From Chloroflexi bacterium bin125 (GTDB taxonomy: Bacteria; Chloroflexota; Dehalococcoidia; Bin125), in contig MPNM01000008.1 of NCBI GenBank assembly GCA_002239025.1, forward strand, positions 1-47,195: a stretch of DNA of 47,195 nt. The letters run 5' to 3'. Both the position numbers and the translations under genes were made by a program. The first letter of the stretch is position 1. Each line of letters starts with the position of its first letter. Under the pieces are notes generated by a model. It saw nothing but the letters and a program-made list of their open reading frames with translations. It ran no database searches and was not told the origin of the DNA. Shown here piece by piece: positions 14,701 through 42,658 of this stretch.

Positions 14701-15645
14701 ATGTCGCAGAGAGTCGCGATTGTCGGCGCGGGAGCGGTCGGCGGGTACTTTGGCATGCGTCTCGCCGAGGCGGGCCATGATGTCCGGTTTCTCATGCGCC
14801 GCGACTACGACGCAGTCAAGGCCGGCGGCCTGCATCTCTCGAGCCACCTTGGTGACATGACGCTCGACTCTCCGACCATCGAGCGGACACCCGAGGCGCT
14901 CGCCGCGCACGGTCCGGTCGACTGGGTGCTGGTCGGACTCAAGGCGACCGCGATTCCCGACATTCCAACACTGGTCGGACCGCTGCTGTCCGAGGGCACG
15001 CGGGTCCTCGCGATCATGAACGGACTCAGCGTCGACGAGGAGATTGCGGCCCAGCTTCCGGAGGCAACTTCGCTCTTCGGAGGACTGGGATTCATCGGCG
15101 TGATCCGTGGCGAGCCGGGCCAGATCATTCACCAGGAGTTCGGAGCGATCAACCTCGGTCACCACGGCGACGACCCAGTCGAGCTGCAACGCGGCGTCGA
15201 TCTGTTTGCGGGCAGCAAGGTCGAGATTCGACCCGAATCGAGCCTGCTCAAGGCGCGCTGGGAGAAGCTGTGCTGGAACATCCCCTTCAACGGGCTCTGC
15301 GTGATCGCGGGCGGAGTCGCGGTCGATCAGGTGATCGAAGACCCGCCGCTGTACGACGCAGCACACGAGATCATCCGCGAGGTCGTGGCCGCCGGTAACG
15401 CCGACCTGGAGGCGCACGGTGAAGCGGTCCGGATCGACGGCCCGCGGATTGCCCACTTGTTCCTCACCCAGACCCTCGGTATGGGCGCCTATCGGCCGAG
15501 CACGGTGATCGACTACAACGAAGGCCGCCCGCTCGAACTCGACGCGATCTTCCGCCAACCAGTGAGAAGGGCCAGCGAACTAAGCATGCCCTGTCCGATG
15601 ATGTCAATGGTGGCGTCCCTGGTTGGGAAGCTGGGCGAGCGGTGA
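14701..15645 (+). CDS. panE: 2-dehydropantoate 2-reductase family oxidoreductase (PanE/ApbA-like)
   Basis: A 314-residue NADPH-dependent ketoreductase of the PanE family. The motif VAIVGAGAVGGYFGMRLAEAG at residues 5-25 binds NADPH (split across the double glycine). The 'LKARWEKLCWNIPFNG' segment near residue 182 contains the lysine that in E. coli PanE (K176) is catalytic. AAAGGA precedes the ATG. It follows the flavin oxidase after 6 bp, and its stop overlaps the GTG start of the restriction-modification gene by 4 nt. Because many PanE paralogues act on other 2-oxoacids, the role in pantothenate synthesis is not certain. Confidence 0.82.
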   Translation: MSQRVAIVGAGAVGGYFGMRLAEAGHDVRFLMRRDYDAVKAGGLHLSSHLGDMTLDSPTIERTPEALAAHGPVDWVLVGLKATAIPDIPTLVGPLLSEGTRVLAIMNGLSVDEEIAAQLPEATSLFGGLGFIGVIRGEPGQIIHQEFGAINLGHHGDDPVELQRGVDLFAGSKVEIRPESSLLKARWEKLCWNIPFNGLCVIAGGVAVDQVIEDPPLYDAAHEIIREVVAAGNADLEAHGEAVRIDGPRIAHLFLTQTLGMGAYRPSTVIDYNEGRPLELDAIFRQPVRRASELSMPCPMMSMVASLVGKLGER

Positions 15646-18600
15646 CTGAACTCCGTCAGGCCGTCAAGCAGTATCTGGACGCGGTCTCAGCGGTGAACCG
15701 CGTCGGCACGCCGGAGCTTTCCCACTACACCGCCCTCGACAACCTCTTCGACGCCATTGGCGAGCAACTCACGCCCAAAGTGCGCGCCGTTGTCCAATAC
15801 AAGGAATCGAGCAGCGGACAGCCCGACCTTGGGTTCTTTACCTCAGATAACGAGCAACCCGACCGTGGCGTTGTCGAAGTCAAACCGGCCGACCATGACC
15901 TCGATGTGCTGATCGCATCCGATCAGGTTGATGACTACTGGCGGACGCACAAGCTCGTGCTGGTGACCAACCTGCGCGAGTTTGCCTTGGTTGGACAGGA
16001 CAACGACGGCGCCAAACACACGCTTGAGCGCTACAGCCTCTCCGACTCCAACGCAGCCTTCGACGAACTGCTCAAGCATCGAACTCGTGCCGCCAACCGA
16101 CACGGCGTCTCGCTGGGCGAATATCTGCAGCGCGTGATGTCGCACCGCTCGACCATCTCCGAGCCGCGCGACCTCGCACGCTTGCTGGCCTCCTATGCGC
16201 GCGACGCCCTGCAGCGAGTCGAGCATGCGGCGGAGGAAGAGGACTCGCTTGCGACGATTCGCAGCGCGATCGAGCAGGCGCTGGGCATGTCCTTCGAGGG
16301 CGAGGACGGCGGCAAGTTCTTCCGCTCAACCCTGGTGCAGACGCTGTTTTACGGCGTCTTCGCCGCCTGGGTGCTGTGGGCGCGGGCGGGCAAGCCAGGC
16401 CACTTTGGCTGGAAGGACACCGTCTACGAGCTGCGCGCGCCCGTGTTGCGGATGCTCTTCCACCAGATCACCGATCCCGGCCGGCTGGAACGACTCGATC
16501 TGAGCGAAGTGCTCGATTGGACCGAGGCTGCGCTGGAGCGCGTTGACCGCGAGGCCTTCCTCAAGCGCTTTTCGGAGGGCGAGGCGGTGCAGTATTTCTA
16601 CGAGCCGTTCCTTGAAGCGTTCGATCCCGACCTGCGCAAGGACCTTGGCGTCTGGTACACCCCGCGCGAGGTCGTCCGTTACATGGTGGCGCGGGTCGAC
16701 CGCTCGCTGCGCGACGACCTCGGCATTGCCAAGGGGCTCGCCGACGAGAACGTGTACGTGCTCGATCCCTGCTGCGGCACGGGCGCGTTCCTCGTTGAGA
16801 CGCTGCGCCGGATCGCCGAGACGGAACAGGCGTCGGGCGGCGGCGCAGCCTGGGCTGAGTCGGTCCGCCAGGCTGCTTCAACCCGCGTCTTCGGCTTTGA
16901 GATCATGCCCGCGCCGCTGGTCGTCTCGCACCTTGAGATCGGGCTGGCGCTGGAGCAGATGGGCGCGGGACTGGCGCCCGACCAGCGAGCCGGCGTCTTC
17001 CTGACCAACGCGCTGACCGGCTGGGAGCCAACGGAGCAGGCCAAGCTGCCATTCACTGAGCTTGAGGAGGAACGGAAGAGCGCCAACGAGGTTAAGCAGG
17101 AACGCAAGATTCTGGTCGTGCTCGGCAATCCGCCTTACAACGGCTTCCCCGGCGTTTCCGAGGTGGCAGAGGAGCGGAAGCTGACCGACGCCTACCGCAC
17201 AGTCAAGCAGCCTGTCACGGGCCCCGACCTGCCCAAGCCTAAGGGTCAGGGACTGAACGACCTCTACGTGCGCTTCTTCCGCATGGCCGAGCGCCGCATC
17301 GCCGAGAAGACCGGCAAGGGCATCGTCTGCTTCATCAGCAACTATTCATGGCTCGACGGCCTCTCCTTCCCCGGCATGAGACAGCGCTACCTCGACGCCT
17401 TCGACATCATCCGCATCGACAACCTCAACGGAGACAGTCGCCGAACAGGCAAGCTCACACCGGAGGGCGATCCGGATCCGAGCGTGTTCTCGACGAAGGA
17501 CGATCCGGTTGGAATCCAGGTCGGAACGGCCATTGCCACGCTGCTGCGCAAGGAAAAGCACAAGCCGCTGGAGAAGATCGACTGGAGAGAACTGTGGGGC
17601 GTCGGAAAGCTGACGAAGCTGGGCGATACAGCTGAGTCGAAGCCACATGGGCAGTATCAGTCAGTCAGGCCGATGACAGGTCTGGGTCTACCCTTCGGCC
17701 CCGTCGCAGTTAGCGAGCACTGGTTCGAATGGCCGTCGGTTGTGGAACTGTTCCCCGCTCAGTTCCCTGGCGTAAAGACGAATCGGGATCCGTTCTTGGT
17801 GGGCACTGATCTTGAGCCCCTCTCATTCCGCATTCAGCAGTACTTCGACTCCTCAGTGAGTCACGTAGAGATTGCCCGCCGATGGCCATCGGCGTTGAAA
17901 AAGACGAGTTCCATCCCGCAGGATCCACAATCAGCGCGAGAGGTCCGCCAGAAACGGGGAATGAGTGACTCCGGCCTTGTCCGACACGCCTGGCGACCAT
18001 TCGACACACGATGGCTCTATTGGGAGTCAGACATTGGTTTGCTTGCCCGTCCGAGCCCTGAGTATGCACCACATGTCTTCGCGGGGAACGTCACGATCGT
18101 GACGCAACAGAAGCCCCGACGTGAGTGGTCTCCGCCACAAGTCATATCTGTCATAGGCGGTATTGACCTGTTTGACCGCAGCGCAACTTGCATACCCCTC
18201 TACCTCCGAGACGACCAGTTCGGCGAGGAGGTCAACGGCGTCAAGCGCACCGCCAACCTGAGCGAGGTAGCGCAGTCTTACATCGAGTCCATGAACGCCG
18301 CGCCCGAGGACCTCTTCCACCATGTCCTCGCCACGCTGCACGACTCCGCCTTCCGCGAGGCCAACGCCGGCGGTCTGCGCATGGGCTGGCCTCGCATCCC
18401 CCTGCCCGACAGTGCCGACGCCCTGGCCGAGTCCGCAGCCACGGGCCGCCGCCTCGCCCGCCTGCTCGACACCGAGTCCGATGTCACCGACCTCCTCGAC
18501 ACCAGCATCGCCGTCCCCACCACCATCGACGGCCAACCGATGCAACCCAACGACTTCAACCTCACCGCCGGCTGGGGCCACTACGGAGCCAATCAAGCCG

Positions 18601-18857
18601 TCATGCCCGGCCAGGGCAAAGTCGAGCGCCGGGGCGAGATGGTGGATGTCTATCTGAACGATCGGGCCTACTGGAAGGATGTGCCGATCGAGGTGTGGGA
18701 GTATCGGTTGGGCGGGTATCAGGTGTTGAAGAAGTGGCTGTCGTATCGGGAGTCGAAGGTGCTGGGGAGGGGGTTGGCGGTGTCGGAGGTGGCCTGGTTC
18801 TCGGAGGTGGCTCGTCGGATTCAGGTGGTCCTGCAAGTCTCGGAGGTGAATGAGTGA
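15642..18857 (+). CDS. Single-chain restriction-modification enzyme (type ISP-like nuclease + N6-adenine methylase, no helicase)
   Basis: A 1071-residue protein. The N-terminus has a PD-(D/E)xK nuclease pattern: P61-D62 then E79-V80-K81. A helical linker to about residue 300 follows, then an N6-adenine DNA methyltransferase with motif I DPCCGTGAFL at 375-384 and motif IV NPPY at 496-499. The part from about 700 to 960 (KTNRDPFLVGTDLEPL, 'LVRHAWRPFDTRWLYWE', 'PRREWSPPQVISVIGG') matches the C-terminal target-recognition domain of type ISP enzymes. Known ISP enzymes such as LlaBIII are ~1600 residues with a superfamily-2 helicase between nuclease and methylase; no Walker or DEAD-type box is present here. 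The GTG start overlaps the PanE stop (GTGA), and its own stop overlaps the next start likewise. Confidence 0.85.
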   Translation: MTELRQAVKQYLDAVSAVNRVGTPELSHYTALDNLFDAIGEQLTPKVRAVVQYKESSSGQPDLGFFTSDNEQPDRGVVEVKPADHDLDVLIASDQVDDYWRTHKLVLVTNLREFALVGQDNDGAKHTLERYSLSDSNAAFDELLKHRTRAANRHGVSLGEYLQRVMSHRSTISEPRDLARLLASYARDALQRVEHAAEEEDSLATIRSAIEQALGMSFEGEDGGKFFRSTLVQTLFYGVFAAWVLWARAGKPGHFGWKDTVYELRAPVLRMLFHQITDPGRLERLDLSEVLDWTEAALERVDREAFLKRFSEGEAVQYFYEPFLEAFDPDLRKDLGVWYTPREVVRYMVARVDRSLRDDLGIAKGLADENVYVLDPCCGTGAFLVETLRRIAETEQASGGGAAWAESVRQAASTRVFGFEIMPAPLVVSHLEIGLALEQMGAGLAPDQRAGVFLTNALTGWEPTEQAKLPFTELEEERKSANEVKQERKILVVLGNPPYNGFPGVSEVAEERKLTDAYRTVKQPVTGPDLPKPKGQGLNDLYVRFFRMAERRIAEKTGKGIVCFISNYSWLDGLSFPGMRQRYLDAFDIIRIDNLNGDSRRTGKLTPEGDPDPSVFSTKDDPVGIQVGTAIATLLRKEKHKPLEKIDWRELWGVGKLTKLGDTAESKPHGQYQSVRPMTGLGLPFGPVAVSEHWFEWPSVVELFPAQFPGVKTNRDPFLVGTDLEPLSFRIQQYFDSSVSHVEIARRWPSALKKTSSIPQDPQSAREVRQKRGMSDSGLVRHAWRPFDTRWLYWESDIGLLARPSPEYAPHVFAGNVTIVTQQKPRREWSPPQVISVIGGIDLFDRSATCIPLYLRDDQFGEEVNGVKRTANLSEVAQSYIESMNAAPEDLFHHVLATLHDSAFREANAGGLRMGWPRIPLPDSADALAESAATGRRLARLLDTESDVTDLLDTSIAVPTTIDGQPMQPNDFNLTAGWGHYGANQAVMPGQGKVERRGEMVDVYLNDRAYWKDVPIEVWEYRLGGYQVLKKWLSYRESKVLGRGLAVSEVAWFSEVARRIQVVLQVSEVNE

Positions 18858-19843
18858 AGGGTTTCATGGGCTCCGGGACAATGTGGTTCTTGGTGATCGT
18901 CGCAGCTATCGTCCTTACCGGCGTTCTGCTGTCGTGGGAGTTTTGGGACGAGTTAGCCGCGACCGAGAGCGGCGAGGAGAGTCTCAGTACGACGATCCGA
19001 AACATGGTCCTAATAGTTGGAGCAGGATTGGCCCTCCTGCTCGCAGTTTGGAGGGGATGGGTCGCCGAGCAACAAGTTAGAGCGTCGCAGGAAAGCGTTG
19101 ATGCGGCACGTAACAGCGTTGATGCGGCCCAAGAGGCTCTCGCAACCCAGCGATTCCAATCGGCGGCGCAGATGCTCGGGCATGATCTGAGCGCCGTGCG
19201 TTTGGGTGCCATTCATACTCTTGCCCAAATCTCGCGAGAAAACCGCGGACGCTACTACGTGGAAACTGCTAGATTGCTCGCATCCTTTGTTCGACAGCCA
19301 CGGACCGGCGAGCAGACAGACACAACCCACGTCCCTCGCGGAAAGGGCCGCAGTGTGCGTGAGGACGTCAGCGCGGCCCTTGACTACATCGGTTCAAGGT
19401 CGCCGGAAGACATCGGCTTTGAGATGGAACAGGGCTTCACGATCGATTTGCATGGTAAGAATTTCGAACGCTGGGATCTTGGCGGACTGAACCTTGCACG
19501 CGTTTCCCTGGAAGGATCATCCTTTCACAGAGCGAACCTCAAAAGTGTAGACCTCACAGGGGCAGATATATCCGATTGTTCGTTTTGTGGAGCGTTTTTC
19601 GGAGGCGCAGTAATGAAGAGCGCGAAGCTCTCAAATGCTAACTTCACTAGGTGGTACATAGAACGCAACGGTGGGTACTCAGAATGGTCCGATATCGATA
19701 GGGGACCGGGATCAGTCGTGGGATTGGTGCAAGCCCAGCTGGATGAAGCATCTCAGGACGAGGAGAATCCGCCAAGACTCCGAGACGTGCAAGATGCTGA
19801 GACTGGCAAGCAGCTAACTTGGCATGGAATGCCGGCTAAGTAA
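18854..19843 (+). CDS. Membrane-anchored pentapeptide-repeat protein coupled to the RM enzyme
   Basis: A 329-residue protein. Two N-terminal transmembrane helices (FLVIVAAIVLTGVLLSW near 12-28; MVLIVGAGLALLLAVW near 52-67) are followed by a coiled-coil-like helix (EQQVRASQESVDAARNSVDA), a helical region with 'RLGAIHTLAQISRENRG', and a pentapeptide-repeat stretch at about 198-265 (DLGGLNLARVSLEGSSFHRA, NLKSVDLTGADISDCSF). The cytoplasmic part would be a right-handed beta helix. It starts with GTG overlapping the RM stop by 4 nt (GTGA), so it is translationally coupled to it. Similar membrane-pentapeptide proteins are widespread but uncharacterised. An accessory defence or membrane-sensing role is inference. 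Its 3' end overlaps the convergent higA copy by 30 bp. Confidence 0.75.
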   Translation: MKGFMGSGTMWFLVIVAAIVLTGVLLSWEFWDELAATESGEESLSTTIRNMVLIVGAGLALLLAVWRGWVAEQQVRASQESVDAARNSVDAAQEALATQRFQSAAQMLGHDLSAVRLGAIHTLAQISRENRGRYYVETARLLASFVRQPRTGEQTDTTHVPRGKGRSVREDVSAALDYIGSRSPEDIGFEMEQGFTIDLHGKNFERWDLGGLNLARVSLEGSSFHRANLKSVDLTGADISDCSFCGAFFGGAVMKSAKLSNANFTRWYIERNGGYSEWSDIDRGPGSVVGLVQAQLDEASQDEENPPRLRDVQDAETGKQLTWHGMPAK

Positions 19844-20149
19844 GAGTGTATGGGGTCGATACTGCCAGGCCACGCGTTCGATCCGTTTGATGTCACACGT
19901 TGCGTTGCGGGCAAGTTCCAGATCGTGTGTCGTCTGCAAGCGCAACCAGGCTTCGGCTGTCCCATCAAAGGCCTGCTGCAGGTGCACCGCGAGATCGGCG
20001 GTGATCCGCTCACGCCCGTTGCACAGGGCCGACAAGTACTCCTCGTCCACTTTGAGGTGGGCCGCGGCGGCGGCGATCGAGAGGTCGAATGGCTCGAAGC
20101 ACAGCACGAGCACCGTTTCGCCTGGACGCGACGGATTCTTCATCGGCAT
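19814..20149 (-). CDS. higA: HigA-family antitoxin, third and most diverged tandem copy
   Basis: A 111-residue HTH-XRE antitoxin of the HigA type. It begins MPMKNPSRPGETV, has an HTH around 'AAAAHLKVDEEYLSALCNGR' and the family segment ITADLAVHLQQAFDGTAEAW. It starts 2 bp after the second copy's stop. Compared with the other two copies it has diverged most (VLVLCFEPFDLS replaces the usual REDCIEALGLT), and the stop codon after IERVA is lost, adding a ~16-residue foreign tail read into the end of the convergent pentapeptide gene. It may be decaying or have a changed role. Confidence 0.75.
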   Translation of the reverse strand: MPMKNPSRPGETVLVLCFEPFDLSIAAAAAHLKVDEEYLSALCNGRERITADLAVHLQQAFDGTAEAWLRLQTTHDLELARNATCDIKRIERVAWQYRPHTLLLSRHSMPS

Positions 20150-20151
20150 GG

Positions 20152-20436
20152 TCAGGCGGCGCGTTCGATTCGCTTGATTTCGCAGGCCGTCTTCCGGGCC
20201 TGGGCGAGGTCGTAGGCGGCCTGCATGCCAAGCCAGGCGTGGGCGGTGCTGCCGAAGGCCATTTCGAACCGAATTGCCATATCGGCGGTGATTGGAGCGC
20301 GGCGCTCGCAGATTGCAGTGAGAGCGTCCTCCTCCACTTGCAGATGCGCGGCGGCTTTCCCGATGGTCAGGTTCAGTGCCTCGATGCAGTCCCGCAGGAC
20401 AATGCGACCGGGATGCGACGGGTTCTTCATCGGCAT
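20152..20436 (-). CDS. higA: HigA-family antitoxin, second tandem copy
   Basis: A 94-residue HTH-XRE antitoxin (MPMKNPSHPGRIVLRDC, HTH in 'IGKAAAHLQVEEDALTAICE', then ITADMAIRFEMAFGSTAHAW). It is about 70% identical by eye to the first copy, with the same length and the same KRIERAA ending. The start at 20436 lies 2 bp after the first copy's stop (TGA-CG-ATG), so translation is probably re-initiated. The frame is open upstream to 20523, but that part lies inside the first copy in another frame and is not real. Unit period to the neighbouring copy is 287 bp. Confidence 0.85.
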   Translation of the reverse strand: MPMKNPSHPGRIVLRDCIEALNLTIGKAAAHLQVEEDALTAICERRAPITADMAIRFEMAFGSTAHAWLGMQAAYDLAQARKTACEIKRIERAA

Positions 20437-20438
20437 CG

Positions 20439-20723
20439 TCAGGCGGCGCGTTCGATCCGCTTGATGTCGCAGGCCGTCTTTCGAGCCTTGGCGAGGTCGT
20501 AGGTGTTCTGCAGGCGGAGCCATGTGTCGGCAGTGCTTCCGAAGGCTTGTTCGAACCGGATGGCGAGGTCGGCCGTGATGGGTGCCTCACAGGCACACAC
20601 GGCCGCCAGCGCTGACTCCTCGATCTGCAGATGTGCTGCAGCCTTGGCGATGGTCAGGCCCAGGGCCTCAATGCAGTCTTCTCGAACTGTCTCACCCGGG
20701 TGGTGCGGATTACTGCGCGACAT
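20439..20723 (-). CDS. higA: HigA-family antitoxin, first copy next to the toxin
   Basis: A 94-residue XRE-type antitoxin (MSRSNPHHPGETVREDC, HTH in 'IAKAAAHLQIEESALAAVC', then ITADLAIRFEQAFGSTADTW). It would bind and neutralise the HigB toxin and repress the operon through the HTH. It starts 22 bp after the higB stop with AGGAG upstream; toxin-first order is normal for higBA. HPGE near the N-terminus and the FGST.. segment are the hallmarks of the family. It is the best-conserved of the three and is likely the functional partner. Confidence 0.88.
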   Translation of the reverse strand: MSRSNPHHPGETVREDCIEALGLTIAKAAAHLQIEESALAAVCACEAPITADLAIRFEQAFGSTADTWLRLQNTYDLAKARKTACDIKRIERAA

Positions 20724-20745
20724 CTGCAGAACTGCTCCTCGGTGG

Positions 20746-21024
20746 CTAATGGTAGTCGAGCATATCGACATCGGTCGCGTGACCAGCCTCGAAACGGAAG
20801 ATGATCCGGTGATTCCTGGACACGTCAACGGCCCAGAATCCTGACCGCTGACCCTTCAACGGATGCAACCGCCAGCCTGGCACGTCCATTGCACGTTCCT
20901 CGCTCGAGGCATCCAACTGCTCCAGGATGCGTTCGATTCGCCGTCGATGCGCAGGTGGAACAAGCCGAGGGTCGTTGCGCTTGTGCAAGAGCCGCAAACC
21001 ACGATGTCTGATGCGTTGGATCAC
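20746..21024 (-). CDS. higB: HigB/RelE-like toxin
   Basis: A 92-residue toxin of the RelE/ParE superfamily, HigB (GraT-like) branch, a ribosome-dependent mRNA endonuclease. Signature: 'RGLRLLHKRNDPRLVPPAHR' at the start, 'WRLHPLKGQRSGFWAVDVS' in the middle, NHRIIFRFE and the terminal DMLDYH. The start is a GTG at 21024 that overlaps the stop of the DNA glycosylase gene by 4 nt (GTGA). The toxin is thus read from the glycosylase transcript as well as any own promoter. Three antitoxin copies follow. No disabling change is seen. Confidence 0.88.
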   Translation of the reverse strand: MIQRIRHRGLRLLHKRNDPRLVPPAHRRRIERILEQLDASSEERAMDVPGWRLHPLKGQRSGFWAVDVSRNHRIIFRFEAGHATDVDMLDYH

Positions 21025-21551
21025 CGAGCAATCGTAGGCACGTCTCTATTCCGTGACAACGCGGAACACCACTCGTTCTTTGCGGCAAACCTTGACTCTT
21101 CGGTGTTCCAATGGAGAGGCCTCGGACTGGTGCTCGGTAGTGCGATCAAATCCGCTTCCAGACCCGGGAACGCTCGCCGGAACTCTCTCAACCTCCTGCC
21201 GTTCAGGAGGATTGGGAACGGTCCCCTGGACTCCAGTAGAACCCCGATTCCATTCGGCACGGCATCACGAATCTTGTCGTCTCCCGACCCTTCGCGACGC
21301 ACTTGCTCGTACAGATCCCAGATCGCGATGTTCCTGGCTCGAACCTGTTCGACTCGCTCCTCGTATGGCGCGGTGGTGTCTTCGACGATTCCGCAGTGTT
21401 GCAGCACTCGCCAGAACCAGTTCTGAGGGTGGTTGTAGTATTGCTGGCTCTCTAGCGACTTCACGCTGGGGAAGGAGCCGAGGATCAGAGCTCGGATTGG
21501 GCCGTCGGGCAGGATTGGAGGGAGGCCCTGGAGGAGGTCGTTGCTCGGCAT
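21021..21551 (-). CDS. DNA glycosylase of the hypoxanthine/uracil (UDG superfamily, family 6-like) type
   Basis: A 176-residue base-excision-repair glycosylase. 'LILGSFPSVKSLESQQYYNH' at residues 23-42 and PQNWFWRVL after it match the DNA-deoxyinosine glycosylase (HDG, UDG family 6) signature, with Asn in the catalytic region. 'ALPSTSPRPLHW' near residue 137 is the C-terminal DNA-intercalation motif. It would remove hypoxanthine (deaminated adenine) or uracil from DNA. The ATG at 21551 lies right beside a dispersed repeat and has no strong ribosome site. The stop overlaps the higB start, an unusual pairing of repair enzyme and toxin. Confidence 0.85.
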   Translation of the reverse strand: MPSNDLLQGLPPILPDGPIRALILGSFPSVKSLESQQYYNHPQNWFWRVLQHCGIVEDTTAPYEERVEQVRARNIAIWDLYEQVRREGSGDDKIRDAVPNGIGVLLESRGPFPILLNGRRLREFRRAFPGLEADLIALPSTSPRPLHWNTEESRFAAKNEWCSALSRNRDVPTIAR

Positions 21552-32547: not shown

Positions 32548-35537
<2,990 letters not shown>

Positions 35538-42524: not shown

Positions 42525-42641
42525 GCTGGTGATTGGAGCGCGGTGGCACCACCCGTTCCCATCCCGAACACGGAAGTGAAACGCCGCAGCGCCGACGATA
42601 CTGGGGGGGCAACCCCTTGCGGAAAATAGGCCATCGCCAGC
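42525..42641 (+). rRNA. rrf: 5S ribosomal RNA
   Basis: About 117 nt. GCTGGTGAT at the start pairs with ATCGCCAGC at the end. Loop B/C contains CACCACCCGTTCCCATCCCG and AACACGGAAGTGAAACG, the conserved 5S core. It stands about 7 kb after 23S with its own promoter and terminator, so it is transcribed separately. Confidence 0.95.
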
Positions 42642-42658
42642 TCGCTCTCTTCCTCCTT

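Follow-up and report, generated by a model that had tools for sequence, protein, structure and literature searches.

DrdV has been placed in type IIL, a group of restriction-modification (R-M) enzymes acting by multimerising on their sites (PMC11842806). The type ISP enzymes LlaBIII and LlaGI (PDB 4xqk, 5ffj) contain an SF2 helicase-translocase, in chains of about 1400-1580 residues. HEPN effectors are also linked to R-M systems: PrrC occurs with PrrI, and ApeA is embedded in R-M operons (PMC3710099, PMC3506569). In the part of a study of sponge symbionts drawn on here, R-M genes are described as enriched and laterally transferred between these bacteria, and no single family of enzymes with an exchangeable gene at its 3' end is described there (PMC8163846).

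The window is the whole stretch of 47,195 nucleotides from contig MPNM01000008.1 of Chloroflexi bacterium bin125, a bacterium that probably lives in marine sponges. It carries an R-M enzyme gene directly followed by the gene of a membrane pentapeptide-repeat protein. To the following reading we give about an even chance: the enzyme is of type IIG, and 3' of its gene lies a recombining slot that receives second-line effectors, among them the pentapeptide protein. The genes of the site are the following.

14701..15645, + strand: ketopantoate-reductase-like gene (ApbA), bordering the variable chromosomal site on the left
15642..18857, + strand: type IIG/IIL (DrdV-like) R-M enzyme without helicase, with ISP-type specificity domain; 1071 aa, GTG start
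18842..18847, + strand: GGAGGT, 6 nt upstream of the GTG of the pentapeptide gene and probably its ribosome-binding site
18854..19843, + strand: slot gene, 329 aa, with membrane hairpin, coiled coil, helical repeats and pentapeptide beta-helix
20746..21024, - strand: HigB-like toxin gene
21021..21551, - strand: uracil-DNA-glycosylase-superfamily gene, bordering the variable site on the right

The enzyme and pentapeptide reading frames, both with GTG starts, overlap by the four bases GTGA. The second gene thus begins at 18854, inside the enzyme stop codon that ends at 18857, as the initial annotation had stated. A 4-bp overlap is by itself not special at this locus, because there is another between the stop of the ketopantoate-reductase-like gene and the GTG start of the enzyme. 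The translational coupling of enzyme and pentapeptide protein is real, though not obligatory.

Within the enzyme gene, three motifs were located.

15825..15884, + strand: PD-(D/E)xK nuclease motif, D62 ... E79-V80-K81, invariant in homologues
16761..16784, + strand: methylase motif I, L374-DPCCGTG, conserved in homologues
17127..17138, + strand: methylase motif IV, N496-PPY, conserved in homologues

The residues D62, E79, K81, D375-P-C-C-G-T-G and N496-P-P-Y are invariant in 56/56 homologues. Nuclease, methylase and specificity domain are held in a single chain, and Pfam matches were obtained to N6_Mtase (1.8e-10) and to Type_ISP_C (1.2e-46, residues 702-1042). A Pfam search of the 1071-aa protein gave no helicase model at E<1, and thus no SF2 helicase-translocase between nuclease and methylase such as defines type ISP, while the ISP-type C-terminal specificity domain is present. 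The PADLOC type IIG model matches the enzyme at 1e-96. An ISP-like architecture without helicase, as described in the initial annotation, is therefore upheld.

Solved enzymes were ranked against the window enzyme both by sequence, where DrdV came top with 142.8 bits and the ISP enzymes scored 84-96 bits, and by predicted fold (Foldseek), where DrdV was again top with an E of 2e-31 (7lo5, 1141 columns) and the ISP enzymes reached 7e-25. The structure model has a pLDDT of 72, and the placement of its domains is uncertain. DrdV (PDB 7lo5, 7lvv) resembles the window enzyme in combining nuclease, N6-adenine methylase and specificity domain in one chain of about 1030-1070 aa without helicase, although the two are only about 20% identical in structural alignment. 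LlaBIII and LlaGI share the methylase and specificity domain families and a related architecture, but differ by their helicase-translocase and longer chains. The proposed relatedness to ISP enzymes thus stands, with DrdV rather than an ISP enzyme as the nearest relative. Judged by sequence and predicted fold, the enzyme is an ordinary one-chain type IIG/IIL R-M protein of the DrdV kind, and its cleavage would be type IIG-like, as had been suggested. The N-terminal Mrr-like nuclease would cut unmethylated DNA with no translocase needed, the central domain would methylate adenine and the C-terminal domain would read the site. The initial annotation had treated the absent helicase as a deficit calling for a partner; this does not hold, as DrdV, the closest solved enzyme, is naturally without one. 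Its expectation that no helicase gene is a constant partner agrees with neighbour clustering of the best 80 of 444 relatives, and a helicase partner encoded elsewhere was rejected on that result. We know of no overlapping accessory slot in DrdV.

The pentapeptide protein has two hydrophobic segments, at about residues 1-32 and 44-72, and shows a predicted hairpin, a long helix and pentapeptide repeats.

18878..19051, + strand: hairpin of two predicted membrane helices (about aa 9-28 and 48-66), its loop acidic (net -6)
19436..19663, + strand: pentapeptide-repeat beta-helix, about aa 195-270, from Pfam and structure prediction

The acidic loop of the predicted hairpin suggests that both ends of the protein are cytoplasmic. 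Pfam (3.5e-11), AF2 and Foldseek found A(D/N)LXX repeats in tandem, folded into a right-handed beta-helix. The two membrane helices, coiled coil and pentapeptide repeats read from the sequence earlier are supported by prediction and Pfam. The protein shares its beta-helix repeat family with Alr5209, HetL, MfpA and Qnr, the match being confined to the repeat. To our knowledge, the solved members of this group are without membrane hairpin, coiled coil and helical-repeat region. No PADLOC model matched the protein, and among the papers found on pentapeptide proteins in R-M or defence there were incidental mentions only, none of them testing one in defence.

Loci were located by an enzyme scan and a class-wide profile search, and the alignment of the pentapeptide proteins lacks conserved stretches. 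A pentapeptide gene lies directly 3' of the enzyme in at least 11 distinct loci, window included, and overlaps the enzyme stop in 9/11 of them; because so many distinct loci share it, the arrangement is not due to chance. It is found behind 6/12 resolved orthologues in genus and family, behind 7/73 enzymes in a wider survey of the best 80 of 444 relatives, and behind 0 of about 16 distant homologues (~30% identity). Conservation of the gene beside the enzyme, which the initial annotation had expected, is contradicted by these counts, and a constant pentapeptide partner was rejected. Fourteen pentapeptide genes were found among 120 relatives, six behind an enzyme and three behind an enzyme remnant, and on the enzyme tree the presence of the gene switches at least seven times.

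The position 3' of the enzyme is elsewhere taken by ApeA, DSR2-like SIR2, Abi_alpha, SLFN_AlbA_2 and other defence-type genes, and by a second type IIG enzyme. ApeA is the slot gene in L047/L097 and L117, and stands behind an enzyme remnant in L048; the DSR2 model scored 2.4e-158 among the slot genes, which fits the SIR2 protein of L167. Several of these occupants also overlap the enzyme stop (L117, L122, L157 and L132 by -4, L129 by -8, L167 by -11). The occupants are functionally unrelated among themselves, and in most of the wider loci (best 80 of 444 relatives) the slot holds no recognisable defence gene. As in PrrC/PrrI and ApeA loci, a putative second-line effector gene is lodged inside an R-M locus, in a slot shared with ApeA, DSR2-like and Abi_alpha genes; the window occupant differs in being a membrane pentapeptide protein and not a HEPN RNase.

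The genome of the window holds two enzyme copies that are mosaics of each other, with DNA arms 93-97% identical around a specificity segment of 50-60% identity. The edges are sharp, near aa 460 and aa 850, with renewed divergence about 12 codons before the stop.

17022..18191, + strand: variable segment covering the later half of the methylase plus the specificity region (about aa 460-850); DNA 50-60% identical to the paralogue
18192..18821, + strand: constant 3' arm, its DNA 83-100% identical to the same-genome paralogue; about aa 851-1060

The same mosaic pattern occurs in genome G001, and intact enzymes stand in tandem in L172. Remnants of the enzyme 3' end, consisting of the constant 3' arm, adjoin other, displaced slot genes. 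In L077, L080 and L081 an intact pentapeptide gene is accompanied by the enzyme only as a remnant, which in L081 has several stops; these genes argue against strict silencing of the effector by the enzyme. Recombination is the probable cause of both mosaics and slot exchange. Since this MAG holds two similar copies, part of the mosaic pattern may be an artefact of assembly, and contig C48 may have been binned wrongly.

It is possible, if somewhat unlikely, that the pair is merely co-located, an independent cargo or defence gene having inserted 3' of the enzyme at a recombination hotspot, with the overlap being due to a compact insertion that uses transcription from upstream. The pentapeptide family is widespread in genomes without this enzyme, so the two genes could be neighbours simply because both reside in a defence hotspot, and the unrelated functions of the occupants and the intact gene beside the decayed enzyme of L081 point the same way. 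This account is opposed by the recurrence of the tight-overlap order in nine loci although their pentapeptide proteins are only about 30-58% identical to each other, and by a class-wide co-occurrence above chance (7/16 versus 14/377 genomes, Fisher p 4e-6, without kinship correction).

The initial annotation had proposed restriction at the site of phage DNA entry, with the pentapeptide protein anchoring the enzyme to the inner membrane. Translational overlap favours co-assembly, and the predicted hairpin and cytoplasmic beta-helix would suit an anchor, but the proposal gained no specific support and we regard it as very unlikely: the gene follows a minority of homologues, proteins of quite different families fill the slot elsewhere, and a pure tether does not predict intact pentapeptide genes beside enzyme remnants. 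Furthermore, identity between the window enzyme and its closest relative is 82%, and between their pentapeptide proteins 32%, unlike co-evolving interfaces. Equally improbable to us is a DNA mimic that restrains the enzyme by binding to it or that shields DNA topoisomerases. The beta-helices of MfpA, Qnr and AlbG do match the protein in fold, yet only in its repeat part, where its own beta-helix is short, and the slot homologues range in net charge from -14 to +13 and in pI from 5.2 to 10.0, which speaks against conserved mimicry. A DNA-mimic regulator was rejected as the main reading on this charge variation.

The two genes have more the appearance of a modular defence unit than of a membrane-tied cutter. 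On the slot reading, enzyme copies would recombine homologously through their conserved arms, swapping the specificity segment together with the gene behind the stop codon, and the slot gene would often be translated in step with the enzyme. We infer a defence role for the pentapeptide protein, most likely as a membrane-anchored second-line (abortive-type) effector, whose cytoplasmic helical and beta-helix part may sense or bind a partner and whose hairpin may act on the membrane. Rather doubtful, and offered tentatively, is the wider proposal of a modular R-M platform across ~12 phyla of sponge symbionts, where recombination would swap specificity and coupled effector at once, displaced enzyme tails would keep old effectors, much like the orphan tips of Rhs or CDI loci, and membrane-acting defence effectors would include the two-helix pentapeptide protein as a new class.

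If the slot reading is true, a type IIG enzyme gene serves as docking site for interchangeable back-up defence genes, and recombination renews both specificity and effector. Genes behind this enzyme would then offer a direct route to new defence effectors, and the membrane pentapeptide proteins, an unexplained family that is common in many bacteria, would become candidate defence proteins.

A phage or virus origin was rejected, with no relatives in viral contigs. The enzyme family recurs in about 12 phyla, its carriers apparently being mostly sponge symbionts. The HigB-like gene and tandem HigA-like genes (19814-20828) form a convergent neighbour of the slot gene that is frequent, yet not constant.

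Two adjoining genes of the window are considered here.

15642-18857, +, restriction-modification enzyme, 1071 aa
18854-19843, +, pentapeptide gene, GTG start overlapping the enzyme TGA

The enzyme start overlaps the stop of an ApbA-like gene upstream, and GGAGGT lies 6 nt 5' of the pentapeptide gene GTG. The initial annotation had read this start inside the stop codon correctly, and it had placed D62, E79, K81, DPCCGTG (375-381) and NPPY (496-499) where they are found, all invariant in 56 aligned homologues. Its ISP-type C-terminal domain without a helicase was borne out by Pfam (Type_ISP_C at 1.2e-46 and N6_Mtase, no helicase), as were membrane helices and pentapeptide repeats in the second protein (two hydrophobic segments; repeats at 3.5e-11). 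An AlphaFold2 model of this protein (pLDDT 81) shows a helical hairpin whose second hydrophobic segment runs on into a long helix, as well as short helices in pairs and a beta-helix. The loop that joins the pair of hydrophobic helices is markedly acidic (net -6), so that both termini probably lie in the cytoplasm.

The best solved match to the enzyme by sequence was DrdV (7lo5/7lvv, 1.3e-40), above LlaGI and LlaBIII. The predicted structure, in which domain placement is uncertain (pLDDT 72), also gave DrdV (7lo5) as top match (2e-31), with LlaBIII second (7e-25), and the PADLOC type IIG model matched at 1e-96. The enzyme agrees with the type IIG/IIL definition in all features testable by sequence and predicted fold; it adds a new member to a known enzyme kind. 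Type ISP membership was rejected, as that definition fails without a translocase. From the absent helicase it had been proposed that cleavage is either IIG-like or partner-dependent. IIG-like cleavage is the likelier of the two; a partner is not needed to explain the absence, since DrdV is described as a type IIL enzyme, and this class restricts via multimers assembled on its sites (PMC11842806).

A search covering 120 related genomes found 14 pentapeptide genes of the window protein's family. Six of them immediately follow an enzyme gene that is full or cut off by a contig end, and three immediately follow a 3' remnant of one; one is in the same chromosomal site and four are elsewhere. The pentapeptide gene is next after the enzyme in 6 of 12 resolved orthologues (genus and family). 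The other six of the 12 are arranged differently.

Arrangement after the enzyme gene, by genome
G004, ApeA
G002, 576-aa protein
G017, 500-aa protein
G010, IS
G011, no same-strand gene of note
G014, enzyme broken

Scanning the genomes of 84,980 species gave 444 enzyme relatives. Among the best 80 of these, the pentapeptide gene is directly 3' in 7 of 73 loci with enough downstream sequence, one of them from Acidobacteriota. In all there are 11 distinct loci with this order. In nine the pentapeptide gene overlaps the stop, in most cases through a shared ATGA, GTGA or TTGA (4 bp). No pentapeptide gene was found beside distant enzyme homologues (about 30% identity). The suggested coupling is thus real, but not constant. 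At class level the two genes co-occur above chance (7/16 versus 14/377 genomes, p 4e-6, uncorrected for kinship).

The position directly 3' of the enzyme stop, here called the slot, holds other genes in further loci.

Other slot occupants, by locus
L047/L097, L117 (Nitrospira) and L048 (after a remnant), ApeA
L167, SIR2_2 protein
L129, Abi_alpha
L161, SLFN_AlbA_2
L124, AAA/NACHT-like protein
L113, second type IIG-like enzyme
L128, C5 methylase

Several of the non-pentapeptide genes overlap the stop too (-4 in L117, L122, L157 and L132, -8 in L129, -11 in L167); overlap is therefore a property of the slot and not of the pentapeptide protein. PADLOC gave one DSR2 match (2.4e-158) among 43 slot proteins; its tally lists no protein names, and the L167 SIR2 protein is the most natural fit. 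Of the 43 candidate ORFs, many have no match, and some must be noise. Proteins of about 460-500 aa that look like one family (L044 10255-11631, L052 5507-7006, L013 2630-4810) recur directly after the enzyme or its remnants. This family had no significant Pfam match and a weak HEPN_Apea hint (E 0.13), and is possibly an undescribed HEPN-like effector. In 7 of the 80 loci (L108, L109, L111, L115, L122, L127, L138) a conserved protein that resembles phage Gp37/Gp68 by eye only is encoded no more than 4 kb downstream of the enzyme.

The genomes compared are MAGs. The window enzyme is 82% identical to its nearest relative (G009:C39), their pentapeptide proteins only 32%. A second enzyme copy in the window's own genome lies on C48, a 9-kb contig that ends inside the enzyme gene and may be misbinned or misassembled; the DNA of this copy is 93-97% identical to that of the window's copy over about aa 150-460, 50-60% over about aa 460-850 (latter half of the methylase plus the specificity region), 83-100% over about aa 850-1060 and, beginning about 12 codons short of the stop, mostly 33-60%. 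The two enzyme copies of G001 show the same pattern. The sharp mosaic of the window and C48 copies resembles the outcome of gene conversion or of a switch in specificity. Enzyme 3' remnants stand beside other slot genes in seven loci (L013, L044, L048, L062, L077, L080, L081), a Rhodothermales genome (L172 5729-13373) carries two intact enzyme genes as a direct tandem, and the pentapeptide state changes at least seven times on the enzyme tree. The simplest reading is that copies recombine through their conserved arms, so that specificity and slot gene are both exchanged and displaced tails stay behind. The interval from the ApbA-like to a uracil-DNA-glycosylase-like gene (window 14701-21551; L043, L045, L049, L052, L077, L080) is a variable chromosomal site. 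It holds the enzyme gene with or without the pentapeptide gene, a broken enzyme gene, or the pentapeptide gene next to no more than an enzyme tail.

The pentapeptide protein had been suggested to tether the enzyme at the site of phage entry. Against this stand the intact pentapeptide genes where the enzyme is gone or decayed, the varied slot contents and the mismatched divergence of the two proteins. Linked suicide or dormancy genes in R-M loci are a published idea (PMC3506569), and R-M operons have been described as harbouring HEPN proteins such as ApeA (PMC3710099). Most likely the enzyme by itself restricts unmethylated DNA. The slot gene would, in line with these reports, be a second line of defence produced in step with it, a role that position suggests for the pentapeptide protein. 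A strict guard of the PrrC type is argued against by intact pentapeptide genes that outlast the enzyme, which is gone in L077 and L080 and decayed, with several stops, in L081. That the two genes are co-located without function is a less likely but serious alternative. A 3' slot that recurs, overlaps the enzyme and is exchangeable, with a membrane pentapeptide protein as occupant and with displaced tails, is a new form of the known arrangement of R-M with a linked effector; no account of it was found in the literature searched, which took in only a part of the subscription papers.

A tree of 58 enzymes interleaves 12 phyla (20 label changes), which is consistent with lateral transfer. The best 80 of the 444 relatives form one type IIG family of 50-80% identity across about 12 bacterial phyla. 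Their hosts are apparently almost all sponge symbionts. Some records are sponge-derived by name (Spongia_Bin9, Candidatus Synechococcus spongiarum), and the series SB066x, COS, CAR, RHO, APA, MPN and OY282 are, judging by their names, probably of sponge origin. Ircinia sponges are the source of the jk18x series (PMC9531527). An earlier paper reports that R-M genes are enriched in sponge symbionts and laterally transferred among them (PMC8163846).

Two other features of the window were noted, the first converging on the pentapeptide gene.

19814-21024, -, tandem, similar HigA-like antitoxin genes with one HigB-like toxin gene

Repeated HigA-like copies also occur behind the enzyme in many relatives. 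The rRNA operon is split, with no 16S within the window, 23S rRNA then tRNA-Met at 32548-35537, and the 5S 7 kb off (42525-42642).
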